NCBI GenBank assembly: GCA_021202015.1
Contig: JAJQDV010000045.1
Location: 1-55,679 of the forward strand
Source of the DNA: Clostridiales bacterium
Lineage (GTDB): Bacteria; Bacillota; Clostridia; Lachnospirales; Lachnospiraceae
Reading direction: 5' to 3'
DNA length: 55,679 bases
Shown: positions 807 through 54,210 of the stretch, piece after piece
How the letters are laid out: each line of letters starts with the position of its first letter
How positions within the stretch are numbered: position 1 is the first letter of the stretch
Notes under the pieces: model-generated
The model's input: only the letters and a program-made list of their open reading frames with translations
What the model was told of the DNA's origin: nothing
Database searches by the model: none
Program-made: the position numbers and the translations under genes

Positions 807-3005
807 TCACTTAATCGTTACTACGAATTCCTGTGAAGTGGAGTGGCTTACGGAACGCTCAATGCCAGTCAGGACGTCTGGCTCTTTTACGCTGTAGGAA
901 TACGTCACCCGCACCCGAATCTCGCCCGCACTTGTCCCAGTAATCCTGCAAATTTGGGCGTTTTCTCCGGTCAATGTCGCAAGCGAATCACCATATACGA
1001 ATTCCCAGCTCCACAAATCATAGCCTGTGTCGTATTCATACGGCCCGGAGATGTCAACATAGCTTCCTACAGAGATGGTATACTCCCCATCTGGCTGGTT
1101 TTCTGCAACCGTATCCAGCCCAATCGGTACAGCAATTAGCGTCTCCACTTCATAAGGTTCTGACTCAAACTGAGCACAGGTATAGAATACAGCGATGGAC
1201 TCATCAACATACATAACGCGCATATTGACATCGGTCATCACACCACTCAAGCCACGGACAGGATAGATATAATTTCCATCATGCAAGCAGGCGAACATTG
1301 CAGTCCACGTATAGGGCGGAATTTTCGACTCAATACCTCTTGTGTTTGTAGCCCAGTTACTTTCGATAATGAAGTAGGAGCTGTCATAGATTTGGTCGGT
1401 TGCCAAAGTTACTGTCGTCGGAATATAAACCACCTGTTGCTCTGTGCCATATTTGTTTTCGACGTAAATTTCCTGCCGGTTGTCATCATTATCATAAATA
1501 TAATCGGACTCATATGTTGTGGAGCTGCCATCCGTAATCATCATTGCCTCGCCCACGGCTGCTGTAAGCCTACCATCCGTTGTTTGGAAACTGCCATCCG
1601 CCAGCCGATATAACCCGGCCGCAAAGGAATCACCAATGTAGCTCGACCCTCCGGATGACGAACCGTATACATATCCATCGTTGCCCGGTTCAAGTGCAGA
1701 ATCATACCACATGGCACCTTTTAGTGTGTCCCTCTTAATTTCCGCATAAATCATAACATCTCCAACATTATCGGTGTAAACTCCCTTAATGCCACTTCCC
1801 GTCATGTTTTTGCTGCCCGTGTAATTGAGCACAAACTCAATAAACGTATATGTGCTGCCTTCTTTATAATGCGGATCAGCCACAAGTTCAAAATCATACT
1901 TATCACACAGCAACTCTACATACGCACACAACACATCATAATCCGCAGCATTTCCCTTAAAATCTCTCACCATGCTGGTGCCACTTGCACTCGCGTCACC
2001 AAGAGTCATCTCCTGCTGTGCATAATAGAGCAAATCCATTGCATCCGAAACAGGCTTTGACAAGGAACCTGAGTCAGAAGAAAGTGCTTCTGTCACAAGG
2101 GTCTTCTCCGCAGTAGATACGCTACCGTTACTTTGGGAATCTTCTGAGGATGAATCTGTTGAACCGCTGTCACTCCATACCACTTCGGCATCCGCCGAAA
2201 GGTTCGATAAATACACATATATGTAATCGTCCCCATTATCAATTGTTGCCGCGATTATGGTAATTTCCCCTTGGCTAATGTCTCCATCTGGTGCAAGCTC
2301 AGCTGTCATTAAGTAGTCCGCTACTTCTGATGAGTCATAATCGTATTCCTTAGAAATCATCTCTAAACCGTAATCGGAGAGAAGAAGTTCTATAAAGGAC
2401 TCTGCATCCTCCTGTGCGTCCGAATCTAAAGTATACTGAACCTCATCAGCATAGTCACTCCAGTCACCAGGAACTCCGAAAACATCATCCGGATTTGGTA
2501 GAATGATGGTAACGTTACCCTGCGCATAGCTTTCCACATCTTCCACCGTGTAATTCGAGCATTCCAACGCCACTACCGTATTATTTTTTGCCAAAACATT
2601 ATGGAAATAGGAAATAGTGACATACCCATCTTCAGAATTATTGTTATAGCTAAGTTCGATATCTGCATCCACCAGAACACCACTACCATTCGGATCAGCA
2701 GGATCTTCACTATAGATGTTGTATACTTCTTGCGTGAAATTATAATCAGAAATAAGAAGTTGCACATACGACTCTATCATGTCCAGAGTAGCATAAGACG
2801 TACTTGCCCAATAAGTAAATTGCCCTTCCTTTTCGGTTACTTCAACGTCTTCTGCATTTGCGTTGAAAAATGCTGTAGGATCTGGGATTACGATATTATT
2901 TTCTGTAGTTGCTTCATCCCCTTCAGTTGTTGTACAGCCAGCCATAGCAAAAACAAGAATGCCGGTCATCAAAGCACATAAAATTCTTTTTAATGCGGTC
3001 ATCAT
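807..3005 (-). CDS. Large secreted lipoprotein of unknown function
   Basis: A protein of about 732 residues that I do not recognise. It begins with a lipoprotein signal: a basic start, a hydrophobic stretch (LCALMTGILVFAMAGC) and a lipobox Cys, followed by an acidic, Thr-rich linker. The first half has two related-looking segments of about 100 residues around SYVQLLISDYNF and SFIELLLSDYGL, and a third around AYVELLCDKYDF, so a domain repeated three times is likely. The C-terminal 90 residues resemble an Ig-like beta domain. The ATG at 3005 is chosen because GGGAGG lies 7 nt before it; the longer frame starts inside that site. It would be anchored on the outer face of the membrane. Base composition is more AT-rich than in the genes to its right. 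Confidence 0.8.
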   Translation of the reverse strand: MMTALKRILCALMTGILVFAMAGCTTTEGDEATTENNIVIPDPTAFFNANAEDVEVTEKEGQFTYWASTSYATLDMIESYVQLLISDYNFTQEVYNIYSEDPADPNGSGVLVDADIELSYNNNSEDGYVTISYFHNVLAKNNTVVALECSNYTVEDVESYAQGNVTIILPNPDDVFGVPGDWSDYADEVQYTLDSDAQEDAESFIELLLSDYGLEMISKEYDYDSSEVADYLMTAELAPDGDISQGEITIIAATIDNGDDYIYVYLSNLSADAEVVWSDSGSTDSSSEDSQSNGSVSTAEKTLVTEALSSDSGSLSKPVSDAMDLLYYAQQEMTLGDASASGTSMVRDFKGNAADYDVLCAYVELLCDKYDFELVADPHYKEGSTYTFIEFVLNYTGSKNMTGSGIKGVYTDNVGDVMIYAEIKRDTLKGAMWYDSALEPGNDGYVYGSSSGGSSYIGDSFAAGLYRLADGSFQTTDGRLTAAVGEAMMITDGSSTTYESDYIYDNDDNRQEIYVENKYGTEQQVVYIPTTVTLATDQIYDSSYFIIESNWATNTRGIESKIPPYTWTAMFACLHDGNYIYPVRGLSGVMTDVNMRVMYVDESIAVFYTCAQFESEPYEVETLIAVPIGLDTVAENQPDGEYTISVGSYVDISGPYEYDTGYDLWSWEFVYGDSLATLTGENAQICRITGTSAGEIRVRVTYSYSVKEPDVLTGIERSVSHSTSQEFVVTIK

Positions 3006-3140
3006 CACACAACCTCCCAAAGTTGTCATCTCCTACTGAAAAATTCGTATCCAGTATTTCTAATTATATAACAGCCATTCTTTTTAAGTAATTTTTTCAA
3101 TTCAGCTGTTTTCATTCTATTTCCCCATCACCCATACAAT

Positions 3141-3215: not shown

Positions 3216-3704
3216 TCAACGCTTCTCAGCTTCCGCCCTGACAAAATGCCCTGATTTTCCTCCGTCCTTTTCCAGCAGGAGGATATCGCGTATCACCATC
3301 CCGCGATCTACCGCCTTACACATGTCATAAATCGTGAGCAGTGTAACCGCCACGGCATTCAGTGCCTCCATCTCTATCCCGGTCTTCCCCGTCGTCTTGA
3401 CGGATGCGATGGCTTCGATCTCCGATGCCTCGGGATAAAGCTTAAAATGAATATCCACGCCGGTCAGCAGCAGAGGATGGCACATGGGAATCGTCTCCCA
3501 GGTCTTTTTTGCTGCCATCACGCCCGCTACCTGGGCAACCGCCAGCACATCTCCCTTTTTCACCTTTCCCTCCGTGATGAGGGAAAATGTCTCCGGCTGC
3601 ATGGAAATCCGGCCGGAGGCCACGCCAATCCGGGCGGTATCTGCCTTCTCTGATACATCCACCATCTTCGCACGGCCCTGATCGTTGATATGTGTTAATT
3701 CCAT
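3216..3704 (-). CDS. moaC: Cyclic pyranopterin monophosphate synthase MoaC
   Basis: Converts the MoaA product (3',8-cyclo-7,8-dihydro-GTP) into cyclic pyranopterin monophosphate, an early cytosolic step of molybdenum cofactor synthesis. The 162-residue length is normal. Family signatures are visible: [12 protein letters not shown] in the middle, then [15 protein letters not shown] and the C-terminal [12 protein letters not shown]. The ATG at 3704 is preceded by AGGAGGAG; the 40 residues of frame upstream of it are not MoaC-like. It is the last gene of a minus-strand cofactor cluster that begins with the MOSC gene. Its partner moaA is not in the window. Confidence 0.95.
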
Positions 3705-3768
3705 CCTGTATCTCCTCCTGATATAATACGGCAGTCCTTTTCCGTCAAAAGAACTGCCATACATAAAA

Positions 3769-4116
3769 TCAATATAAAATATCCCAATCCGTCGGGAAAC
3801 GCTGCACGCCGATGAGCATGCCATCGGTAATCTTACGATATTTCTCGCCTATGGTGTATCCCATCTTGTTCATATCTTCTTCAATATAACGAATCATCTT
3901 ATGGTTATTCGGGACCGCCTTGTACTGCTCCGGAGGAAGCACACCATGCTTTTCATTTTCGCTGTAGAAAGCGATATTGCAGGTCTCCGGACTGTTCCAG
4001 ATCCTAAAATAACCGATTCCTTTGTCCTCATATTTAAATTCAAACCGCATTACCTGAAACACGGAATATCGCTCAAGCATCTCCCAGTGAATTTTCACCT
4101 GTTTTAATTCAGCCAT
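3769..4116 (-). CDS. Conserved-looking 115-aa protein in the Moco cluster, function unknown
   Basis: I do not recognise this protein. It is a soluble 115-residue product, rich in aromatic residues ([30 protein letters not shown] at the end), with no signal peptide or membrane segment. It has a plausible ribosome site (AGAGG before the ATG at 4116) and lies between the moeA-like gene and moaC on the same strand, 64 bp before moaC. A role tied to molybdenum cofactor or its target enzyme is inferred only from position. It is separated from the moeA-like gene by a hairpin-rich repeat. Confidence 0.7.
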
Positions 4117-4146
4117 ATTTTACCTCTTTCTGTATAACTATATTGA

Positions 4147-4309
4147 CCATTGCCTGACTTTTATCCCCTTGTACTATGATACCGGATTGCCTTCGCAATC
4201 CTCAAACATTCGGAATCCGCCCTGCCGGGCTTCTTCCTCATGTTTGTTCGGGTCTCAAAGTCAGCCAATCGGATGCAAGCATCCATTGCCTGACTTTTAT
4301 CCCCTTGTA
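4147..4309. repeat. 27-bp direct repeats bracketing several hairpins
   Basis: An exact 27-bp sequence (starting CCATTGCCTGAC) occurs at 4147-4173 and again at 4283-4309. Between the copies are three short perfect hairpins: GGATTGC/GCAATCC (4184-4201), GCCC/GGGC near 4218, and GGATGC/GCATCC (near 4271-4284). The element fills the gap between two minus-strand genes of the cofactor cluster. It could be a small non-coding mobile or structured RNA element; nothing in it codes for protein. Confidence 0.6.
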
Positions 4310-4314
4310 TCATA

Positions 4315-5343
4315 TCACTTCCCGAAACCGCAGTTGGGGAAAGTACAATCGCCGCAGTTCAGGCACAGTCCGCCCTCGCCCAACACGGCAATATCCTCCT
4401 GCGTGATCTCGTCGTCCGCCAGCACACGCGGCAGAACCAGATCAAAGATCGTGCGTTTCGCGTACATCACGCAGCCGGGCAGACCGAGAATCGGAACCCG
4501 GGATCCGTCCTTCTCATAGTAAGAAACAAGCATCATCGCGCCCGGGAGCACAGGAGCTCCGTAAGTGATAATGCGTGCACCGGTATTCATGATCGCCCCC
4601 GGCGTACAGTCGTCCGGATCGACGCTCATGCCGCCGGTGCAGATCACCAGCTCCGCGCCTGCGTCCAACTGTTTGAAGATAGCCTCCGTGATATGCTCCT
4701 TCTCATCGTCCACATAGATCTGACCGATGACCTCGCAGCCGTACTCCTCCACCTTCGCGTAGATGACCGGACCGAAAGTATCTTTGATCCTTCCCTTGAA
4801 TACTTCACTGCCGGTGGTAACAATCCCGACCTTTTTCTTCTGAATCGGAAGAACATTGAAAAGAGGTGTCTCTCCCGCCGCCCGCTTCGCGGCTTCCATT
4901 TTTTCCTTTTCGATCACAAGAGGGATAATGCGGGTCGCCGCAATCTTATCCCCCTTACGCACGACAAAATCACCGTGCCGCGACGCGATCATCATCTCAC
5001 CCAGCGAGTTGACCGCAACCAGATGTTCCCGGTCAATCTTCAGCAAGCCATTGATATCGGCGACCAGCTCGATCTTGCCCTCCTTTACATCCGAACCGTG
5101 CATGTTCTGTCCGGCGCAGATCTCATATAGAATCTCAGCGGCGTCATTCTCATGCAGCATGGTGTCGTCATTTTCCCACACATAGAGATGCTCTTTTCCG
5201 ACGGAGAGAAGCACGGGAATGTCCTCCTCCTGCACGATATGCCCCTTCCGGAAAACAGCATCCTTCGTAACACCCTTTATAATCTGTGTAATGTCATGGC
5301 AGAGCACGCTTCCGACCGCATCCTCCGTACGAATCAGCTTCAT
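4315..5343 (-). CDS. MoeA-like molybdopterin-binding protein
   Basis: A 342-residue protein with the MoCF fold shared by MoeA and MogA, which inserts molybdenum into adenylylated molybdopterin. The core holds VGIVTTGSEVFKGRI (residues about 180-195), the loop ICTGGMSVDPDDCTPG, and GLPGCVMYAKRTIFD near the end. The first 150 residues differ from classical MoeA domain I/II. The C-terminus carries a compact Cys cluster (CLNCGDCTFPNC) that may bind zinc or an Fe-S cluster. The ATG at 5343 follows TGGAGGG with good spacing, and the 21 residues of frame upstream are discarded. It lies 40 bp after the mogA stop in the same operon. It probably does the MoeA job here, because no other moeA is seen. 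Confidence 0.85.
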   Translation of the reverse strand: MKLIRTEDAVGSVLCHDITQIIKGVTKDAVFRKGHIVQEEDIPVLLSVGKEHLYVWENDDTMLHENDAAEILYEICAGQNMHGSDVKEGKIELVADINGLLKIDREHLVAVNSLGEMMIASRHGDFVVRKGDKIAATRIIPLVIEKEKMEAAKRAAGETPLFNVLPIQKKKVGIVTTGSEVFKGRIKDTFGPVIYAKVEEYGCEVIGQIYVDDEKEHITEAIFKQLDAGAELVICTGGMSVDPDDCTPGAIMNTGARIITYGAPVLPGAMMLVSYYEKDGSRVPILGLPGCVMYAKRTIFDLVLPRVLADDEITQEDIAVLGEGGLCLNCGDCTFPNCGFGK

Positions 5344-5383
5344 ATTAAAAACCCTCCAGAATCTGTTATCTCTCAACCAAACC

Positions 5384-5869
5384 TCAGGACCGGGCGCACT
5401 CCGCATCCCGTCCGAGCAGAATATCCAGTCCGTGCTTTAAGGCCGGAAGGATATAAGTGAGCGCCTCCTCCACTGCCTTCGGACTGCCGGGCAGATTCAC
5501 AATCAACGTTTCCTTGCGGATACCGGCGGTCGCCCTGGAAAGCATCGCACGATCCGTGATTTTCAGAGAATAATTTAAAATCGCCATCGGGATGCCCGCG
5601 GCCTCCCGCTCGATCACCATCTTCGTGGCCTCCGGGGTCACGTCCCTCGGGGAAAATCCCGTACCGCCCGTCGTTAAGATCAGATGAATTCCCGCATCCG
5701 ACATGGATATCATCTCATCGGCAAGCATCTGCCTGTCATCCGGCAAAATGATCGTCTTTGCGACCTCATAGCCGTTCTCCTCCATAATAGAGACAATTTT
5801 TTTCCCGCTGAGATCCTCTCTCTCACCGGCGTAGCCCTTGTCACTGGCAGTGATCACTCCTACTCGCAT
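5384..5869 (-). CDS. mogA: MogA/MoaB family molybdopterin adenylyltransferase
   Basis: Expected to adenylylate molybdopterin before metal insertion. The 161-residue product has the complete MoCF domain: VGVITASDKGYAGERED at the start, LILTTGGTGFSPRDVTPEA in the middle (residues about 65-83; the TGGTG loop binds the pterin and the acidic residues bind the nucleotide), and LIVNLPGSPKAVEEAL towards the end. It sits between the MOSC gene (31 bp upstream) and the moeA-like gene. Whether the enzyme is MogA or MoaB cannot be decided from sequence. Confidence 0.92.
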   Translation of the reverse strand: MRVGVITASDKGYAGEREDLSGKKIVSIMEENGYEVAKTIILPDDRQMLADEMISMSDAGIHLILTTGGTGFSPRDVTPEATKMVIEREAAGIPMAILNYSLKITDRAMLSRATAGIRKETLIVNLPGSPKAVEEALTYILPALKHGLDILLGRDAECARS

Positions 5870-5900
5870 ATATCTTCTCCTTCTTTTTGTTGGTCGATTC

Positions 5901-6335
5901 TCAGTCTTCCACCATCACGAACTCATCTCCCACGGAGATGGTGCCGCCCTCGAGAACCTTCGTAAAAACGCCTTCCCGCGGCATGATACAGTCGCCCATG
6001 ATCTTGTAAATCTCACAGTGGCTGTGACATTCCTTTCCGATCTGCGTCATCTCCAGCAGAGCCGTCCCGCAGCGGAACTTTGTCCCGATGGGAAGGTTCT
6101 TGAAATCATAACCTTCCACAATAATATTCTCACCGAAGGCGCCAAAATCAACCTGTGCGCCTTTCTTACGAAAGTCTTCGATCTTCTCAAAAGAGAGCAG
6201 GCTGACCTGCCGATGCCATTTGCCCGCATGCGCGTCCTCCTGAATGCCCCAGTCCTTAACCAGACAGGCGGTCCCTACTTCCTTTTTCTGTATCCCGCGG
6301 ATATCGCTGATACAGATCCCTTTGATCACTCCCAT
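5901..6335 (-). CDS. MOSC domain protein, likely Moco sulfur carrier or handling factor
   Basis: A single MOSC domain of 144 residues. Visible features are the early GIQKKEV region, DAHAGKWHRQVSLLS (residues about 34-48), FGENIIVEG, and the Cys-bearing IGKECHSHCEIY in which family members place the sulfur-carrying Cys. Proteins of this size often accompany MoaC/MogA/MoeA in clostridia. It is the first gene of the minus-strand cofactor operon and has a strong AAAGGAG site. TATAAT-like sequences lie just upstream (near 6355-6375), but the -35 is poor. The exact reaction is unproven. Confidence 0.85.
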   Translation of the reverse strand: MGVIKGICISDIRGIQKKEVGTACLVKDWGIQEDAHAGKWHRQVSLLSFEKIEDFRKKGAQVDFGAFGENIIVEGYDFKNLPIGTKFRCGTALLEMTQIGKECHSHCEIYKIMGDCIMPREGVFTKVLEGGTISVGDEFVMVED

Positions 6336-6443
6336 AATAATGGTCTCCTTTTCTGCATAATTATATTAATTATAGCCCATTCATCTGCCTTTTTCTATCA
6401 CAAAATGAAATAGCTTTATCCCATATCCGAATAACTGGTTATT

Positions 6444-7067
6444 TTATTCCTTTCGAACCAGCATCATGATCATATTCACCACCATGTCGACGCCCGGCGC
6501 CATGATCTCCCGGGCTTCCTTCGCGATCTGTCGGGAGGTCTCTTCGATGCCGTCATGGACATTTGTGCGCAGGCAGGTGCGGATGATATAACAGAGAAAC
6601 ATCTCCGTAATCGTGGAAATATCCGTCGCCTGAAGCTTATCCGGATACATGGCTTCCAGATAACCCGAGACGAACGTCTTCAGATCCTCCGGTACAAACC
6701 AGAGATATTTGGAAATCGGACCAACATCATGTCCGTCATTGATAAAAATACGAAGGATATGAATATTCTGATACATCAGATCAAAGATGTAGTCCGCCAT
6801 AATCCGGAAATCTCCGTGAAGATTCAGATAGCTGAGTTTCAGATTCAGATCCTCGGCATCGAACTTAAACTCATGATAGCGCTCAACGACCTGAAGAAAA
6901 AGGGTCATCTTATCCTCAAAATGCCGGAAGATCGTCACCGTATTGCAGCCGGCACGATTGCTGATATCCCGGATCGTTGCCGCGGAATATCCCTTATCGG
7001 AAAACACCTCCAGCGCGCTCTCCAGAATTCTCTCATGCATGTCTGTCGCACTGTTTTTTTTCCCCAT
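6444..7067 (-). CDS. TetR/AcrR family transcriptional regulator
   Basis: A 207-residue regulator with an N-terminal TetR helix-turn-helix (residues about 10-56: ILESALEVFSDKGYSAATI through TVTIFRHFEDK) and a helical ligand-binding C-terminal domain with no recognised ligand. It lies between the cofactor operon and the transhydroxylase genes, on the same strand, and is insulated from athS by two hairpin terminators. Control of the cofactor operon is a reasonable guess from position; no ligand is predicted. Confidence 0.9.
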   Translation of the reverse strand: MGKKNSATDMHERILESALEVFSDKGYSAATIRDISNRAGCNTVTIFRHFEDKMTLFLQVVERYHEFKFDAEDLNLKLSYLNLHGDFRIMADYIFDLMYQNIHILRIFINDGHDVGPISKYLWFVPEDLKTFVSGYLEAMYPDKLQATDISTITEMFLCYIIRTCLRTNVHDGIEETSRQIAKEAREIMAPGVDMVVNMIMMLVRKE

Positions 7068-7172
7068 GAAGCAATCCTTTCCTTCACAAATAATTCAATA
7101 GCCGGATTCCGCGTTTCCCGCGAATACTTTTTTTATTATACTACTTTTTCAGAAATTCGTATATACTATATT

Positions 7173-7201
7173 AAAAAAAAGAATCCTGCTTTACGGGATT
7201 C
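7173..7201 (-). terminator. Rho-independent terminator (second of two after athS)
   Basis: The minus strand reads GAATCC, a 9-nt loop, GGATTC, then eight Ts (plus-strand A-run 7173-7180). It backs up the stronger hairpin at 7224-7251. Confidence 0.75.
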
Positions 7202-7217
7202 CTGTATAGCCAATATG

Positions 7218-7251
7218 ACAAAAATTCGGCGCCGCATTCACGGCGCCGAAT
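7218..7251 (-). terminator. Rho-independent terminator of athL-athS
   Basis: A perfect 11-bp stem (ATTCGGCGCCG, 7224-7234, with 7241-7251) and a 6-nt loop, followed on the minus strand by a T-run (TTTTTG). It lies 36 bp after the athS stop. Confidence 0.85.
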
Positions 7252-7286
7252 CCTGTGAGTAGAGAACTACCAATCCCTCTCAAACC

Positions 7287-8105
7287 TCAGATGAAAATCT
7301 CTCCAATATTGAGTGACTTATCCAGTTCTACTGTTTTCACTGTCTTTCCGTCAATCTCCAGTGTGTAAGTACCCGGCAGCAGCTTATCAAACTTGAACTC
7401 GCCGAAGTAATCGGTGATCTGCGTCTCCTCCACGCCGTTTCCTTTCAGTGTAATGGAGACGTTCTCCACATCGTCATCGGTCTCCGTGTCAACCACGGCG
7501 CCGGTGATAAACGCTTTCGTAAAACGATACAGATTCTTATAGTATACGTGAGGTTTCGTGCCAAGCTCGGGACGATATACCTCAAGTCCCTGCTCCTCGA
7601 TGATCTTTGCCATCTCTTCCGGCTCGATATCGTAGTACTCGATGGAATCCGTCGGGCAGCTGTGTGAGCAGCGCGGCTTACAGGGCTGCACGCCGCTGTC
7701 GATGATGTGGGCGCACATCGTACACTTCTGCGCCACATTCTTCTCCTCGTTCCAGTAGATCGCTCCGTAAGGGCAGCTGTCCACGATTTCCTTCTTCCCT
7801 CTCGCCTTATCGGGCTCGATCAGGACAATACCGTCCTCTCTGCGGGTAATGCAGTCAGGAAACGCGTTCAGACAGGGAGCATTCTCGCAGTGCTGGCACA
7901 TAAGCGCCAGGTATCCGACGTCAATCCGCGGACATTGTCCCCGCTCGGTACGGAGAAGCTTCAGCCAGCGGGATTCATGACGCGGCTGCGACTCTGTGTA
8001 GGGCATCCAGTCGTTTCCGACATGCTCATCCTTGCAGGACATAAAGCAGTCATTACAGTCAAAACAGGATGCAATATTCATTACCAGATATTTCTGTTTA
8101 CTCAT
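7287..8105 (-). CDS. athS: Pyrogallol-phloroglucinol transhydroxylase, iron-sulfur small subunit
   Basis: Electron-transfer subunit of the molybdenum transhydroxylase. The 272 residues match the known Pelobacter small subunit in length and layout. A ferredoxin-like part carries [4Fe-4S] ligands (Cys14/17/20/24, Cys70/73/78, Cys111, Cys128/131, Cys142/146/150), including CPYGAIYWNEEKNVAQKC. A C-terminal beta domain (from about residue 198, with TDYFGEFKFDKLLPGTY) resembles a transthyretin/Cna-B fold. The start codon overlaps the athL stop by 8 bp (ATGAGTAA), so the two are translationally coupled. No Tat or Sec signal is present, so the enzyme should be cytoplasmic. Confidence 0.93.
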   Translation of the reverse strand: MSKQKYLVMNIASCFDCNDCFMSCKDEHVGNDWMPYTESQPRHESRWLKLLRTERGQCPRIDVGYLALMCQHCENAPCLNAFPDCITRREDGIVLIEPDKARGKKEIVDSCPYGAIYWNEEKNVAQKCTMCAHIIDSGVQPCKPRCSHSCPTDSIEYYDIEPEEMAKIIEEQGLEVYRPELGTKPHVYYKNLYRFTKAFITGAVVDTETDDDVENVSITLKGNGVEETQITDYFGEFKFDKLLPGTYTLEIDGKTVKTVELDKSLNIGEIFI

Positions 8106-10899
8106 CTAATTTACCTCCCATCCAGTCATGACCGGAGAACTTCCATGCCTTCTCTGTCCAGACCATCTCATGACAGTTCGGATCCTTGTAGAAGTTCGCG
8201 GAACGGTTCGCTCCCTCCGGCGCGTTCGCGGGCTCGTTCCAGGATGCTTTCTCCTCAGCGCCGCCATGGTTCTTGTCAAGCGGTTTTTCTTTCCAGTCTT
8301 TCAGTTCTTTTCTGTCCCATTTCTCAATCTCAACCAGGCAGTGCTCGGTCGCCATACCGCTGGCATATTTGGACAGGAACCGTGACGGAGTCAGGATGTT
8401 GATGCAGCCGCCGCGGTCAACCGCGTGTCCGGGATCACCCAGAGGCTTATACTCCGCGGAGGACTCATAGCAATGGCAGGTGCCCTTCGGCACACGCTCT
8501 GTCAGCTGGGCGGCAAAAATGACCGCGCCGCGCTCGTTATACGCTTTCACCAGGTCGTGCTGTTTGATCCCGCGCTCCGCCGCGTCAAGCGGATTGATAC
8601 GCATGATCCAGTAATAGAAGCCGTCCACAAGTACTCTGTGGTTCTCGATATCGTTGACGAAGGAATCCTTTCCGTCGCCCTGTGTATGGAAACTGAACCG
8701 GGGATGCGGAGACAGCACAGCAAGCGGGTATTTCTTGATACGCTCGGTGTGATGACCCTCCCAGGACGGAATGTACATCGGCATCAGCGGTCTCTCAGTA
8801 TCATCTGTATCATAATGTCCGAAACGTTTCAGGCTGTTGGACACAAACTCCACCTTGCCAGACTGTGTCTGCAGACCCTTCTGGTCTACCAGGTCGCCCG
8901 GACGGAATCTGGAGATCCATCCTCTGGTATCCTGCTCGCGATCCTCCGCAAACCAGCGGAACGAAGGCGCAGGCGGTTTCCTGTCATCATTCGGCACAAT
9001 AAAGTAACCCTTCTCAAAGAACTTCTCCCAGGTCACGACCTTCGGCATATCGGAGGCGTAGAACATCTGCTTCGCCCAGCCGAGCTCGGTCTTGCCCTCA
9101 GAGAAGACATCGCCCACATGCAGACGCTCGCAGATCGCGTTAAAGATCTCATAGTCGGACATGGACTCGCCCAGCGGCTCGATACACTTCTTCTGCAGTG
9201 TAATCACGCGGTGGTTCGCCTGGTTGTGGGAATCCGGGTTGTAGCCGGAGTTGCTCGCCCACTCGCCGATATCCCAGCGCTCGAAGTTCGTGCAGGCCGG
9301 AAGAATGATGTCCGCGAACGGCACCTCGCCCTCAAACCAGATGGACTGGCTGACAACGAAAGGAAGCCTCTTCGTGCGGTACATTCTCGCGTAACGGTCG
9401 CCCTGACCCATCGTGCCGATGTGGGATCCGCCGTATTTATAGAGCAGCTGGATACGGGAATAACCGTTCGCCGGATACTCATATTTGTGGAACTGCTGCT
9501 CCTGGGAGTCGCCGACAAAGCCTCGGCCCCACCACTCTACATGGTCGTCCAGAATACACTCCGGAAGACGCATACGGTCAAGGTGAACGCCTGCCGCCGT
9601 ACTCAGGTTCGAGGACATCGGCTTACTGTCCACGCCGTTAAACATCCTGTATGCCAGAACCGCGCCTGCCGCGGAGTTCTGTGCATCGCCGCCGATACCG
9701 CCGTCAGCATAGCCCGGGAAGTAGAAATCAGAGTCTACCGGCACGCCCTGTGTCGTGCTGTAGAAATTGATGCCCGGCTTGCCGAGACCCTGCATGGTGA
9801 TCAGCGCGATCATCATTCTGGCCCAGTCCATACCGATCGGGCTTCTGCAGCAGCCGCCCCAGCCGCCGAGACCGCCGGCCGCCAGCATCGTCTTATTCTT
9901 TGCCCACTCACGCGCCAGTGCACGGATATCACGGGCCGGGATGTTACACTCTTTTGACGCCCACTCAGAGGACTTGGGTACACCATCGGTCTTGCCGAGC
10001 ACATAGTCCGTCCACTCTTCAAATCCGAAAGCGTGGGTAGCCACATATTCCTTGTCGTATGTACCCTCTACCAGCCAGGTGTAAGCAATACCGAGCGCAA
10101 GCGCAGCGTCCGTTCCCAACTGCGGGGAAAACCACTTGCCGCCATACAGGCCGTTCGTGTGGTTGTAATACGGATCGATGAATACCATCTTCACGCCGAG
10201 CTCCTGCAGCCATTTCCGGCGGATGGTACTCTCAAACGCACCGTAAATACCGTTGTTCGTCTCCGGATCGGAGGACCAGAATACCATCATCTCACAGTTC
10301 TGAAGGCAATCCTCCAGCAGATCGGTCTGCTCCGGGTTACCAAGTCTGGCGGTAAAACCGTACATATGGGTCGCACCCCAGTGCCAGCCCTCCCAGCTGT
10401 CCGGGTTATGATCGCCGTAGGTCAGACCGGCCGCGTTCATAAAACGGAACAGGGTACTGTGACGGTAACCGACCGTTCCCCACAGGTGGTGGGAGCTCGG
10501 CTCGATCACCATCGCGCCCGGCCCGAACTCTCTCTTAATCCGGCGCATCTCGTTACAGACAATATCGAGCGCCTCGTCCCAGCTGATCCGCTCATAGCCG
10601 GAGATCCCGCGGTTCTCCTCGTGTCGGTCGCCGTTCGGATCAAAGTCCACACGCTTCATCGGATACAGGTTGCGGCGGTCAGAATAAATCATGGATTTAA
10701 ACTGTGCCGTAACCGGCGTGTAGGTCGTCTTTCTCGGCGGGGTAAATGTGCGTCCTCTCGCTTCGATTGAGTATGAAGCGGCGTCGTCGTCGTCCAGATC
10801 CATCGGCGTGATACGTATGATCTTGTCAGCCTCTTCGTCCACATAGACAAAGACCGGCCCGCCGGTGGTCATCTGGGTTTTCCTTACCAAATTTCCCAT
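8098..10899 (-). CDS. athL: Pyrogallol-phloroglucinol transhydroxylase, molybdopterin large subunit
   Basis: Catalytic subunit of a DMSO-reductase-family enzyme that moves a hydroxyl group between phenols, turning pyrogallol into phloroglucinol without net redox change. The 933 residues follow the Pelobacter acidigallici protein almost block by block: TGGPVFVYV at the start, FTPPRKT, SSHHLWGTVGYRHS (about 135-148), HNPDSWEGWHWG (164-175), FWSSDPETN, AAGGLGGWGG, VSQSIWFEGEVPFADIILP. From memory of that structure, His144, Tyr152, Asp174 and the Mo-ligand Ser175 correspond here to His137, Tyr145, Asp167 and Ser168, all present. The C-terminus is about 45 residues longer than the Pelobacter protein. 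GAAGGAGG precedes the ATG. No Tat signal is seen. Formate dehydrogenase and other family members fit much less well. Confidence 0.95.
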   Translation of the reverse strand: MGNLVRKTQMTTGGPVFVYVDEEADKIIRITPMDLDDDDAASYSIEARGRTFTPPRKTTYTPVTAQFKSMIYSDRRNLYPMKRVDFDPNGDRHEENRGISGYERISWDEALDIVCNEMRRIKREFGPGAMVIEPSSHHLWGTVGYRHSTLFRFMNAAGLTYGDHNPDSWEGWHWGATHMYGFTARLGNPEQTDLLEDCLQNCEMMVFWSSDPETNNGIYGAFESTIRRKWLQELGVKMVFIDPYYNHTNGLYGGKWFSPQLGTDAALALGIAYTWLVEGTYDKEYVATHAFGFEEWTDYVLGKTDGVPKSSEWASKECNIPARDIRALAREWAKNKTMLAAGGLGGWGGCCRSPIGMDWARMMIALITMQGLGKPGINFYSTTQGVPVDSDFYFPGYADGGIGGDAQNSAAGAVLAYRMFNGVDSKPMSSNLSTAAGVHLDRMRLPECILDDHVEWWGRGFVGDSQEQQFHKYEYPANGYSRIQLLYKYGGSHIGTMGQGDRYARMYRTKRLPFVVSQSIWFEGEVPFADIILPACTNFERWDIGEWASNSGYNPDSHNQANHRVITLQKKCIEPLGESMSDYEIFNAICERLHVGDVFSEGKTELGWAKQMFYASDMPKVVTWEKFFEKGYFIVPNDDRKPPAPSFRWFAEDREQDTRGWISRFRPGDLVDQKGLQTQSGKVEFVSNSLKRFGHYDTDDTERPLMPMYIPSWEGHHTERIKKYPLAVLSPHPRFSFHTQGDGKDSFVNDIENHRVLVDGFYYWIMRINPLDAAERGIKQHDLVKAYNERGAVIFAAQLTERVPKGTCHCYESSAEYKPLGDPGHAVDRGGCINILTPSRFLSKYASGMATEHCLVEIEKWDRKELKDWKEKPLDKNHGGAEEKASWNEPANAPEGANRSANFYKDPNCHEMVWTEKAWKFSGHDWMGGKLDE

Positions 10900-10936
10900 T
10901 TTTTCCTCCTTCTTTCAAGCTCCATTTTTGACATCT

Positions 10937-10961
10937 GTAATTATTAGGAAATTATAATTAC
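10937..10961. promoter_or_regulatory. Dyad operator at the athL transcription start
   Basis: GTAATTAT (10937-10944) and ATAATTAC (10954-10961) form perfect 8-bp arms around a 9-bp spacer. The dyad lies just downstream of the athL -10, so a bound repressor would block transcription. One of the two TetR proteins of the locus is the likely ligand; this is inference. Confidence 0.5.
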
Positions 10962-10970
10962 GATGTATTT

Positions 10971-10999
10971 TTTATAACATTAAATAAATATCGTGTCAA
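10971..10999 (-). promoter_or_regulatory. athL promoter, sigma-A type
   Basis: The minus strand reads TTGACA (10994-10999), a 17-bp spacer, TATAAA (10971-10976). This predicts a leader of about 65 nt before the athL ATG. Confidence 0.75.
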
Positions 11000-11009
11000 A
11001 AAAATCCTC

Positions 11010-11040
11010 AGAATCAGGACAGTTAAATGTTCCGGATTCT
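11010..11040. promoter_or_regulatory. Hairpin flanked by A- and T-runs, just upstream of the athL -35
   Basis: AGAATC and GGATTCT end an imperfect hairpin with T-rich tails on both strands (T-run 11044-11049; A-run 10998-11004). It resembles a bidirectional terminator insulating the athL promoter, or a binding site for an activator. Confidence 0.45.
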
Positions 11041-11247
11041 TCCTTTTTTATGCAACCGGTCACTTTCAGGCGTTTGTTACAATACACCTGTTTTTATTAT
11101 GAAACATGCACGAAATTAAGAATCATTTTTGTATGTATCCTACAAGTTTCGCACGATTTTATCGAAAAGAATGCAATCATTCACTTGCATTTTTTAATTC
11201 CAAACGTAATTTCAAAACGTTTTTGTCATTCATTCTGAAAATTCGCT

Positions 11248-11295
11248 CCTGTTTTCTAAAAATATCTGGTTTTTTTTACAGAAAACAGGTATACT
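11248..11295 (+). promoter_or_regulatory. Promoter and inverted repeat for the divergent tetR gene
   Basis: A perfect 10-bp inverted repeat, CCTGTTTTCT (11248-11257) and AGAAAACAGG (11280-11289), encloses a weak -35 (TGGTTT, 11267-11272). A -10 TATACT (11290-11295) follows at 17 bp. The layout suggests autoregulation by the TetR protein encoded 50 bp downstream. The rest of the 446-bp gap (10900-11345) holds the athL promoter elements and no gene. Confidence 0.5.
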
Positions 11296-11345
11296 GTATG
11301 TAGATGTATTGCTAAAAAAGCAGAGGAAGCAAGGGGATAATCATC

Positions 11346-11927
11346 ATGAAGGATACCAAATCCTGGATTCTGGACGCGGCAGCTATGCTGTTTACACAAA
11401 ACGGATATAACGGAACCACGACCAGAGCGATCGCGGAGCTCGCGGGGATCAGTGAATCCACCTTTTTCCGAATTTATAAGAGCAAGGACGCCATGCTGAC
11501 AGATCTGCTCTATATCATGACGCCGGGACCGGAGGACATCCCCATGAAGGAGATGACCAACGGCGCCGACATCCAAAAGGATTTCGAACTGTTTTTTTAT
11601 TACAATGCGATTCTGCATATCCGGCACCTGCCGGTATTCCGCCTTGCCATGCATCTGGAGGAGGTTTATGACAAATCCCGTTTTTCGAAGATCAAGGGCC
11701 TGGTTTCCCAGATGGCCGGATACTTCCAGCATCTGAATGAGATCGGATTTCTCATTGATTTCGATTATGAGATGCTTGCGGAACACATCAATGCGCTGTC
11801 CATCGTAAAGGCCTCCGAGTTTATCACCGGTGAGATCTACGGGGTTCCCATGGAACAGTCCGTGCGGGCATATTCGAAACAGTACGCGGAGTTTTTCGCC
11901 CGGCTGCTGACAACAAAGGATTCCTGA
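11346..11927 (+). CDS. TetR family regulator divergent from athLS
   Basis: A 193-residue TetR protein. The N-terminal helix-turn-helix is clear (AAAMLFTQNGYNGTTTRAIAE at about 9-29, then STFFRIYKSKDAM). The remaining helical domain should bind the inducer. It is the only plus-strand gene near the transhydroxylase and is transcribed away from athL, the usual arrangement for a local repressor whose ligand is the pathway substrate. Pyrogallol or a related phenol is the natural candidate by position, but no binding residue can be read. AGAGGAAGCAAGGGG precedes the ATG. Confidence 0.9.
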   Translation: MKDTKSWILDAAAMLFTQNGYNGTTTRAIAELAGISESTFFRIYKSKDAMLTDLLYIMTPGPEDIPMKEMTNGADIQKDFELFFYYNAILHIRHLPVFRLAMHLEEVYDKSRFSKIKGLVSQMAGYFQHLNEIGFLIDFDYEMLAEHINALSIVKASEFITGEIYGVPMEQSVRAYSKQYAEFFARLLTTKDS

Positions 11928-24021: not shown

Positions 24022-24049
24022 TCTTGACGAGAAAAATCATAATAGAAGA

Positions 24050-24172
24050 TTCTTCAGGGCAGGGTGCGATTCCCGACCGGCGGTACAGCCCGCGAGCGCG
24101 AAAGCGTTGATTTGGTGATTCCCATGCGGATATTCCAAAGCCGACAGTATAGTCTGGATGGAAGAAAGAATT
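24050..24172 (+). ncRNA. FMN riboswitch (RFN element)
   Basis: The conserved aptamer blocks are present in order: TTCAGGGCAGGGTG at the 5' side, ATTCCCGACCGGCGGT, AGCCCGCGAGCG, TGATTTGGTGA with the following TCC, and CCGACAGTATAGTCTGGATG closing the junction. FMN binding should favour the terminator at 24213-24239, switching off ribD-ribE-ribBA-ribH when flavin is plentiful. Confidence 0.96.
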
Positions 24173-24212
24173 TTGTAAACGGAAGATTTATTCCGAATAC
24201 GAACACCAAAAT

Positions 24213-24375: not shown

Positions 24376-25548
24376 ATGAACAGGGAATTTTATATGCGGC
24401 GCGCGCTGGAACTGGCGGAGCAAGGCGCCGGGTACACGAGCCCGAATCCGATGGTGGGCTGTGTGGTTGTGAAGGACGGCCGCATCATCAGCGAAGGGTA
24501 TCATGAAAAATACGGTGAATTCCACGCGGAACGAAACGCGCTGACCCGATGTGAGGAGGATCCGGCCGGTGCCGACCTGTACGTCACGCTGGAGCCCTGC
24601 TGCCATTACGGAAAAACACCTCCCTGCACGGAGATTATCATCGAAAAGAAAATCCGACGTGTATTCGTCGGCAGCACGGATTCCAACCCGCTGGTTGCGG
24701 GAAAAGGGATTCAGTTCCTCCGGGATGCCGGGATTGAAGTGGAGACCGGCATTCTCGAAGCGGAATGCCGGAAGCTGAACGAGGTTTTTTACCATTTTAT
24801 CGAGACGAAACTGCCGTTTGTCGTCATGAAATACGCAATGTCGCTGGACGGCAAGATCGCCTGTACGACCGGCGATTCCAAATGGGTGACCGGCGAAGCG
24901 GCCAGAGCACATGTCCACGAGCTTCGCAGACGATACAGTGCAATTATGGTCGGCATCGGCACGGTATTAGCGGACGACCCCATGCTGAACTGCCGGATTC
25001 CCGGAGAGGTTCGTGCGAACCCGGAAGAACGCAATGCGGACGCATCGACTTCAGACCAGCGGCCCGCATCCGCAATGAACCCGACACGCATTGTATGCGA
25101 CAGCAGCATCCGGATCCCCGCCGACTGCCGGCTGGTCCGCACAGCCCGCGAGATTCCGACGATCGTCGCCTGTTCGCATTCCGCATACCGGTCCGACCGG
25201 CGGCAGAAAAAGATACAGAGTCTGAAGGACGCCGGGATTCAGTTCATCCCGACCAGCGGCTCACACGGCGTGAATCTCAAAGAGCTCCTGACGGAGCTCG
25301 GAAAACAGAACATCGACAGTATCCTGCTCGAGGGCGGCGGCACACTGAACTCCTCCGCACTGGATGAACGTATTGTCAACAAGGTATACGCCTATATCTC
25401 CGGCAAACTGATCGGCGGCAGGGACGCGCCCACACCGGTCTCCGGAATGGGTGCGGACCGCATGGCGGAAGCCGTTTCGCTGAGGGACATGGAAGTCCGC
25501 ACCATCGGAGAGGATCTCTGTATCACCGGGTATCCGGTTTACAGTTAA
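24376..25548 (+). CDS. ribD: Bifunctional diaminohydroxyphosphoribosylaminopyrimidine deaminase / reductase RibD
   Basis: Catalyses the second and third steps of riboflavin synthesis: deamination of the pyrimidine, then NADPH reduction of the ribose. The N-terminal deaminase shows SPNPMVGCVVV, the zinc motif HAER (about residue 50) and LEPCCHYGKTPPCTE. The reductase half begins near residue 150 with VVMKYAMSLDGKIA and has GIGTVLADDPML and LLEGGGTLN. The 390 residues include a linker of about 20 residues after the GIGT region that is rich in polar residues. First gene of the operon. Confidence 0.96.
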   Translation: MNREFYMRRALELAEQGAGYTSPNPMVGCVVVKDGRIISEGYHEKYGEFHAERNALTRCEEDPAGADLYVTLEPCCHYGKTPPCTEIIIEKKIRRVFVGSTDSNPLVAGKGIQFLRDAGIEVETGILEAECRKLNEVFYHFIETKLPFVVMKYAMSLDGKIACTTGDSKWVTGEAARAHVHELRRRYSAIMVGIGTVLADDPMLNCRIPGEVRANPEERNADASTSDQRPASAMNPTRIVCDSSIRIPADCRLVRTAREIPTIVACSHSAYRSDRRQKKIQSLKDAGIQFIPTSGSHGVNLKELLTELGKQNIDSILLEGGGTLNSSALDERIVNKVYAYISGKLIGGRDAPTPVSGMGADRMAEAVSLRDMEVRTIGEDLCITGYPVYS

Positions 25549-53289: not shown

Positions 53290-54210
53290 TTAAGCCAGCG
53301 GCTTTACATCCAGCTGCTTCAGCATCTCCTCCTGATAACGCAGCCGATCCTTTTCATTCAGAACAGCCACCTGCTCCGGAACCTCGGCGTCGTAGAACTC
53401 AAACCTGCCTTTATTGCAGATCCGTCCCTGATTCGGCTCATCCATCTTCGCTATGACATCCACGATCTTTCCCTTTTTGATCAGCAGATATCGCTGGCAG
53501 CCGTTGCCGTTCTTACAGTTATAACAGGTCGCCAAAACCTTCGTAACCTCCCACGGACGGTATTTCCTGCGGTTCTTCGTGCGGAGAGCCCCCGTCGGAC
53601 AGGCCTGTACGCAGTTCCCGCAGAACTCGCATTCCCGGTTGTCGATCCAGTTCATATAAAACGGCGATGAAACCTGAGACACAAATCCCCGCTCAAAGGT
53701 AGAGATCGCGCCCCGTTTTACAATCTGCGCACAGGTATTCACACATCTGTGGCATAAAATACAGAGATTCGGGTTGTATGTAAAATACGGATTCGAATCG
53801 TCGATCGGCTTTTCGATCCGCTCTCCCGGATAGCTGGTTTTTTCGAGACCATATTCATAGCAGAGATTCTGCAGCTTGCAGTCTCCGTTCCCCGGACAGG
53901 AAAAACAGTCTGTCTTATGGTTTGACAACAGCAGATCCAGTGTGGACATCCTGGACTCACGGATCCTGTCGTTCATCGTAGTCACTTCGTTCCCCTCCGC
54001 CAGCGGAAAGGAACAGGCCGTAACCAGCTTCGGATTCCCCTTGATCTCCACCATACACATCCTGCAGGCTCCCTCCGGATTCAGCCCTTTTAAGTAACAA
54101 AGCGTGGGAATCTCGATCCCGGCAGCCTCGGCAGCCTCCAAAATGGTCGTGCCCTCCTCTACCGTCATCTCAATGCCGTCGATCGTTACGTTCAGCATCT
54201 TTTTTTCCAT
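53290..54210 (-). CDS. NuoG-like iron-sulfur electron-transfer protein
   Basis: A 306-residue cytosolic protein with several clusters in order: a [2Fe-2S] ferredoxin domain (CYLKGLNPEGACRMC, about 38-52, plus a later Cys), a His-Cys4Fe cluster (HKTDCFSCPGNGDC), two [4Fe-4S] clusters (CILCHRCVNTC and CEFCGNCVQAC), and a last Cys set (CYNCKNGNGC to GRICNKGRF) that looks like the first domain of bis-MGD oxidoreductases. It ends there: the molybdopterin domains are missing. It probably works as the NuoG-type subunit of a formate dehydrogenase or hydrogenase with NuoE/F partners. A NuoF-like C-terminus lies upstream. Confidence 0.88.
   Translation of the reverse strand: MEKKMLNVTIDGIEMTVEEGTTILEAAEAAGIEIPTLCYLKGLNPEGACRMCMVEIKGNPKLVTACSFPLAEGNEVTTMNDRIRESRMSTLDLLLSNHKTDCFSCPGNGDCKLQNLCYEYGLEKTSYPGERIEKPIDDSNPYFTYNPNLCILCHRCVNTCAQIVKRGAISTFERGFVSQVSSPFYMNWIDNRECEFCGNCVQACPTGALRTKNRRKYRPWEVTKVLATCYNCKNGNGCQRYLLIKKGKIVDVIAKMDEPNQGRICNKGRFEFYDAEVPEQVAVLNEKDRLRYQEEMLKQLDVKPLA

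Follow-up and report, generated by a model that had tools for sequence, protein, structure and literature searches.

What does a pyrogallol transhydroxylase gene pair do beside a run of molybdenum-cofactor (Moco) genes and two regulator genes: is it a self-contained module with a cofactor supply of its own, or part of a larger system? The locus lies in a Clostridiales bacterium of the Lachnospiraceae (contig JAJQDV010000045.1, assembly GCA_021202015.1), and the window that we analyzed is this entire contig (C60; 55,679 bases), part of a 2.2-Mb genome in 73 contigs that is 91% complete. An initial annotation of this DNA had taken its AthL as directly equivalent to the Pelobacter acidigallici enzyme, its Moco genes as a dedicated set and the whole as self-contained. 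From the observed gene content, phylogeny, pairing, linkage and single moaC, we consider another picture quite likely: two paralogous transhydroxylases would act in gallate/pyrogallol fermentation, their genes spread with those of the remaining route over three contigs and the Moco set shared.

Two transhydroxylase paralogues

In the window, athL1 (8098–10899, minus strand) encodes a 933-residue large (Mo-bisMGD) subunit and athS1 (7287–8105, minus strand) a small [4Fe-4S] subunit with a C-terminal CarboxypepD_reg-like domain; the two reading frames share 8 bases. The best PDB match of AthL1 was the P. acidigallici transhydroxylase (4v4c_A, 1266 bits; next best 247 bits), and that of AthS1 was 4v4c_B (305 bits; next best 75 bits). 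AthL1 also carries the Pfam domains PF21423 (AthL-like first domain, 89.5 bits against a cut-off of 27), PF00384 and PF01568. AthL1-AthS1 is clearly predicted to belong to the pyrogallol-phloroglucinol transhydroxylase family (EC 1.97.1.2), as a Mo-bisMGD/[4Fe-4S] enzyme of two subunits, and the known transhydroxylase chemistry is probably right. The matches of both subunits to 4v4c thus uphold the family given in the initial annotation. Its statement that the proteins agree with those of P. acidigallici in length does not quite hold (933 residues in AthL1 against 875, with about 65 extra at the C-terminus), and the agreement in the active site extends to 10 of 11 listed positions, as described below.

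Sharing a fold family with the catechol dehydroxylases, AthL1 might be one of these or another enzyme of the dimethyl sulfoxide (DMSO) reductase family. We judge this highly improbable, since 4v4c matched with 1266 bits, DMSO reductase with 247 and acetylene hydratase with 44.5. PMC7028382 places acetylene hydratase as the closest relative of the catechol dehydroxylases, away from the transhydroxylase. AthL1 is far from acetylene hydratase, through which, rather than through catechol dehydroxylase (Cdh) sequences directly, Cdh membership was compared. Instead of falling in another DMSO-reductase branch, AthL1 nested with the P. acidigallici transhydroxylase in our tree, which was built without catechol dehydroxylase sequences.

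A second pair, athL2-athS2, lies on another contig of the same genome (C5). Identity to the P. acidigallici large subunit is 77.9% for AthL2 and 63.5% for AthL1, and between the two paralogues it is 62.6%; against 4v4c_B, AthS2 scored 350 bits versus 305 for AthS1. Trees were built first from 51 rows and then, more carefully, from 41 of them. In the careful tree, an AthL2 clade (13 rows, including P. acidigallici) and an AthL1 clade (18 rows) each had 100/100 support; the 6 rows of a third clade came from one Oscillospiraceae genome and from genomes of the Family XIII type. A tree constrained to unite P. acidigallici with AthL1 was rejected (196.5 log units worse, p-AU 1.3e-5). Judged by this phylogeny, AthL2, not AthL1, is the counterpart of the P. 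acidigallici enzyme in this genome, and AthL1 is an old paralogue, the sister clade of the characterized enzyme. Because AthL1 and P. acidigallici fall in separate clades, the original match was right at the family level and picked the wrong paralogue. The genome of Eubacterium oxidoreducens encodes both copies (89% identity for AthL1, 88% for AthL2), and together with gut-type Lachnospiraceae relatives it bears out the suggestion of a gut-type clostridium.

The two paralogues seem to travel together. We searched 18 distinct AthL1-clade genomes for further copies, taking G070 and G071 as G003 and G007 again and leaving the AthL1 fragment L045 outside the count. All 18 had a second transhydroxylase: AthL2 in 15 (12 as tree rows; G007, G010 and G016 by 89–100% identity) and a third-clade enzyme in three (G066, G072 and G073). 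A counter-case is G012, which lacks AthL1; it carries a 54% relative and an AthL2 gene that contains one in-frame TAG. This paired-paralogue pattern is the part of the finding worth following.

Two side observations concern the copies themselves. The TAG-bearing athL2 of G012 (L008, on G012:C13) and an athL1 of G007 split over two frames (L031) possibly reflect decay or assembly error. Multiple strong transhydroxylase-family matches occur in G073 (five; among them L137, L151, L157 and L162), G072 (four; L138, L152, L158 and L163) and G065 (four; among them L124 and L129), two of the three being Family XIII metagenome-assembled genomes.

For the active site we used an 11-residue list for the P. 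acidigallici crystal structure, all 11 letters of which agree with the 4v4c sequence; AthL1 has Ser at the position that we take to be the Mo ligand. Ten of these positions are invariant across all 31 AthL1 and AthL2 rows. The remaining one, 557, is Asn in 18/18 AthL1 rows and Cys in 13/13 AthL2 rows, and outside both clades it is varied (Cys, Ser, Ala, Val, Leu, Gly and one Asn). We counted 39 fixed differences between the clades, 8 of which are no more than 5 residues away from a listed position (p 0.02). A local cluster at 554–561, with four differences in eight residues, was not significant after scanning, as 8% of random draws matched it.

How should the two copies be understood? They may be isoenzymes that both convert pyrogallol to phloroglucinol and are retained because their expression or kinetics differ. 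The 10 listed residues common to both clades fit this, as does locus L030, in which an AthL1-type gene is preceded by genes of the UbiD, UbiX and PF21758 types, separated from it by a LysR gene. The regulators also differ, TetR sites standing only before athL1 and LysR, MerR and GntR genes around athL2. Retention of a pair in 18/18 searched AthL1 genomes and the fixed differences, including those near the listed residues, hint instead at different tasks, and we regard the isoenzyme explanation as plausible while leaning somewhat away from it. Alternatively, AthL1 could be a second transhydroxylase with another substrate, for example hydroxyhydroquinone, or could make or recycle tetrahydroxybenzene for AthL2. 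Its separate clade, Asn557 and the paired retention favor this, and Pelobacter massiliensis reportedly carries out sequential transhydroxylations of hydroxyhydroquinone. We entertain this second explanation tentatively: no neighboring gene could be tied to hydroxyhydroquinone, the decarboxylase-type genes of L030 point to pyrogallol, and the cluster around 557 does not survive scanning.

Cofactor genes and their linkage

On the minus strand the window reads, from right to left, athL1, athS1, TetR1, MOSC, mogA/moaB-like, MoeA-like, orf115 and moaC. The MOSC-domain protein (5901–6335; PF03473) is followed by a MogA/MoaB-type molybdopterin-binding protein (5384–5869; PF00994, and TIGR00177 at 114.9 bits, above cut-off), a MoeA-like molybdopterin-binding protein (4315–5343; PF00994) and MoaC (3216–3704; Pfam and NCBIfam, above cut-offs), all on the minus strand. 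We moved the start codon of the MoeA-like gene from the open reading frame (ORF) start at 5406 to the ATG after GGAGGG at 5343; no NCBIfam model matched its product at or above cut-off. Between this gene and moaC lie two features that the initial annotation had passed over, orf115 (3769–4116, minus strand; 115 residues) and a Clostridiales-1 RNA (RF01699; 4177–4312, minus strand; 89.5 bits). The genes named in the initial annotation, the same-strand Moco run and the two flanking TetR genes were thus all found on the strands given. The Clostridiales-1 RNA has 11 matches in this genome, 8 above cut-off; the related loci L052, L170 and L171 have none above cut-off.

moaC is single-copy in the window genome and in each of 14 other athL genomes (15 searched, none of the assemblies being closed), and nowhere among these did we find an extra set beside a housekeeping one. 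Within the genus, moaC is found in 18 of 20 genomes and athL-type genes in 8 of 20; in the athL-less members G008, G011 and G019 the mogA–MoeA-like–moaC run stands without transhydroxylases. The window genome encodes three further PF00384 proteins and one xanthine-dehydrogenase-type protein; the one further PF00384 protein tested matched a formate dehydrogenase model (853 bits, cut-off 666). The window holds about half of the sole Moco gene set found in the genome, with mobAB, moaA and moeA on C5. Since there is one moaC and there are other Mo enzymes, the set is most likely shared with these. That it is instead dedicated to the transhydroxylase is suggested by the same-strand run and by the Moco genes that accompany athL2 in E. 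oxidoreducens, Parasporobacterium, G062, G067 and G068; given the single moaC, its far wider spread than athL in the genus and the other Mo enzymes, this view is largely refuted and in our judgment highly improbable.

The linkage of Moco genes with transhydroxylases is nevertheless real. Ten of 16 athL2 genomes have moaC on the contig that carries athL2, and in nine of these the two genes are 3.5–12.7 kb apart. Since these nine are four of the window's clade and five others, they represent fewer events than genomes. In Parasporobacterium paucivorans one stretch runs athL2, athS2, FMN reductase, moeA, moaA, moaC, MOSC, MoeA-like and mogA, with GntR on the other strand. The recurrence of Moco linkage in related genomes that had been proposed as a check is therefore found, mostly through athL2 and not athL1; in L037 and L038, where Moco genes also adjoin athL1, athL1 comes after athL2. 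The clustering probably arises because transhydroxylases account for much of the Mo consumption in these species. As a separate observation, a Moco riboswitch (L167:14249–14384, plus strand) lies before moeA in the P. paucivorans Moco stretch after athL2.

No Pfam or NCBIfam family matched orf115. It is present in 13 of 31 genomes searched (52–100% identity), all of which carry both AthL1 and AthL2, and in 13/13 its neighbor, judged by reading or coordinates, is moaC or the MoeA-like gene; in E. oxidoreducens moaC and orf115 lie about 5 kb from athL2. A single match in G072, inside an 1826-residue frame, is at chance level. Within the genus, orf115 occurs in 7/7 genomes with both paralogues and 0/13 others (p 1.3e-5, not corrected for kinship), and the Moco runs of G008, G011 and G019 do not contain it. 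Five AthL1 genomes are without it (G064, G065, G066, G072 and G073), so the enzyme does not require it. An accessory Moco role for orf115 is our guess.

Putative regulators of athL1

TetR1 (6444–7067, minus strand; TetR_N Pfam domain) follows athS1, and TetR2 (11346–11927, plus strand; assigned by Pfam) is divergent from athL1. Between athL1 and TetR2, a motif search placed two copies of a 20-bp operator-like motif with inverted ends (ATGCAA-N8-TTGCAT) at 11050–11069 and 11171–11190, both on the plus strand and 121 bp apart. Its pattern was derived from an alignment of five athL1-TetR2 type regions, the window's included, so the count in the window is not independent, and the expected count of 0.10 in the window speaks only of its rarity elsewhere. 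A relaxed motif was found in 17 of 195 loci, representing seven genomes, always before athL1. Two of these genomes stand outside the alignment: G007 (L031; one site) and G066 (L033; two sites), in which TetR2 (80% and 55% identity, respectively) is again divergent from athL1; L033 also has a TetR1 homologue near athL1 (50% identity). TetR2 most likely acts on the paired putative sites before athL1. The claim that the regulators are tied to the enzyme thus holds for 7 of 17 genomes, which have operator-like sites before athL1; the other ten show no exact match.

The proposed remaining route on other contigs

Contig C5 carries genes for a DctP-type importer with TRAP-partner-like neighbors, UbiD, UbiX, a PF21758 protein (which we take to be LpdD-like; Pfam gives another name), a MobA/MobB fusion (its families tested on the copy of the near relative G014) and an ABC importer, and further moaA, moeA, FMN reductase, athS2-athL2, a LysR gene and a sodium symporter. 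Contig C56 encodes members of the SDR (best PDB match 5g4k, 425 bits), 3HCDH, Cyclase, BKACE and PTA_PTB families; 5g4k is a phloroglucinol reductase, although the PDB listing names only the SDR family. The decarboxylase, transhydroxylase, phloroglucinol reductase, cyclohydrolase and cleavage enzyme families are all found in this genome, at family level and over three contigs. With mobAB, moaA, moeA and UbiD-type decarboxylase genes on C5 and phloroglucinol genes on C56, the locus is not a self-contained module. In G014, a single contig carries the genes from UbiD onward and those of the window in unchanged order, and by this synteny C5 and C60 are probably neighbors.

Between C5 and C60 there are probably orf740 and a glycosyltransferase-like fragment. 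The former is a 740-residue lipoprotein-like ORF (807–3029, minus strand) in the stretch from moaC to the contig end. Its coding score is weak and no Pfam family matches it; it is not listed at the corresponding place in G014. In several athL2 loci, a 222-residue protein without a Pfam family (L053:6634–7302, minus strand) is conserved beside GntR and an ABC importer. Elsewhere in the window we noted an FMN riboswitch (24046–24174, plus strand) upstream of an ORF at 24376 resembling a riboflavin gene, and a 306-residue protein (53290–54210, minus strand) that resembles the N-terminal iron-sulfur part of NADH-dependent FeFe hydrogenase or NuoG and falls below every cut-off.

Discussion

Based on these findings, we propose a route in which a UbiD/UbiX-type decarboxylase (C5) would convert gallate to pyrogallol, and AthL1 (window) and AthL2 (C5) would move hydroxyls to turn pyrogallol into phloroglucinol, with 1,2,3,5-tetrahydroxybenzene as the co-substrate of the transhydroxylase family. 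From there, enzymes encoded on C56 could lead to acetyl-CoA and butyrate, namely a phloroglucinol reductase, a cyclohydrolase of the cyclase family and an enzyme that cleaves beta-keto acids. AthL1 would be the paralogue under its own regulators, most likely TetR2 on the paired sites, and the same Moco set presumably also serves formate dehydrogenase and other Mo enzymes.

Several points weigh against this proposal. The UbiD protein scored 442 bits to the VdcC hydroxyarylic acid decarboxylase model (cut-off 650) and the BKACE protein 287 bits to its best NCBIfam model (cut-off 382); with both under the cut-offs, gallate is a presumed substrate. Asn in place of Cys557 means that the substrate of AthL1 may differ. 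Ten of the 17 AthL1 upstream regions covered, that of E. oxidoreducens included, have no exact match to the operator-like motif; L028 stands outside this count. moaC and athL2 are on different contigs in 6 of 16 genomes (G000, the window genome, and G007, G012, G063, G065 and G069) and 93 kb apart in G003. Moco genes adjoin athL1 only in the window's close clade (G000, G014, G016, G009 and the fragment L045), where the G010 contig ends before the Moco region, and in L037 and L038; the fetched athL1 flanks of E. oxidoreducens, Parasporobacterium, L025, L027, L030, L033 and L034 hold no Moco gene. Finally, MoaE was not detected in the window genome (G000) and its four nearest relatives (G014, G009, G010 and G016), so a complete Moco route is presumed at most; the other 9 of 14 genomes gave weak matches above cut-off.

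A bolder version of the proposal, which we think rather unlikely as it stands, is a two-transhydroxylase system in anaerobic gallate degraders of the Lachnospiraceae type: AthL2 would convert pyrogallol to phloroglucinol, AthL1, with its Asn557 and TetR control, would act on another polyphenol or supply tetrahydroxybenzene, and in part of these species orf115 would be a cofactor-loading or insertion factor. Should there be a need for two transhydroxylases with distinct roles, the origin of tetrahydroxybenzene would become testable in cultured E. oxidoreducens, a carrier of both genes, and metagenome annotations naming every such gene pyrogallol transhydroxylase would need splitting. Tannin and gallate breakdown enters the phloroglucinol route at pyrogallol. 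Feeding phloroglucinol reduced hydrogen loss in methane-inhibited cattle (PMC5633678).

Compared with known systems, the window's enzyme resembles that of P. acidigallici in its two subunits, in the 63.5% identity of the large subunit and in the Ser at the presumed Mo-ligand position, and differs in its sister-clade position, the Asn for Cys557 and the C-terminal extension. E. oxidoreducens is a gallate fermenter with a gallate/phloroglucinol pathway (Krumholz and Bryant, cited in PMC10470551). It shares both AthL1 and AthL2 with the window genome and has moaC and orf115 near athL2, whereas its fetched AthL1 flank is without a Moco gene. Like the phloroglucinol cluster of Clostridium scatologenes, as described in PMC10470551, C56 brings together an SDR reductase, a cyclase-family enzyme, BKACE and a 3-hydroxyacyl-CoA dehydrogenase; the difference here is that other contigs add two transhydroxylases and a decarboxylase of the UbiD type.

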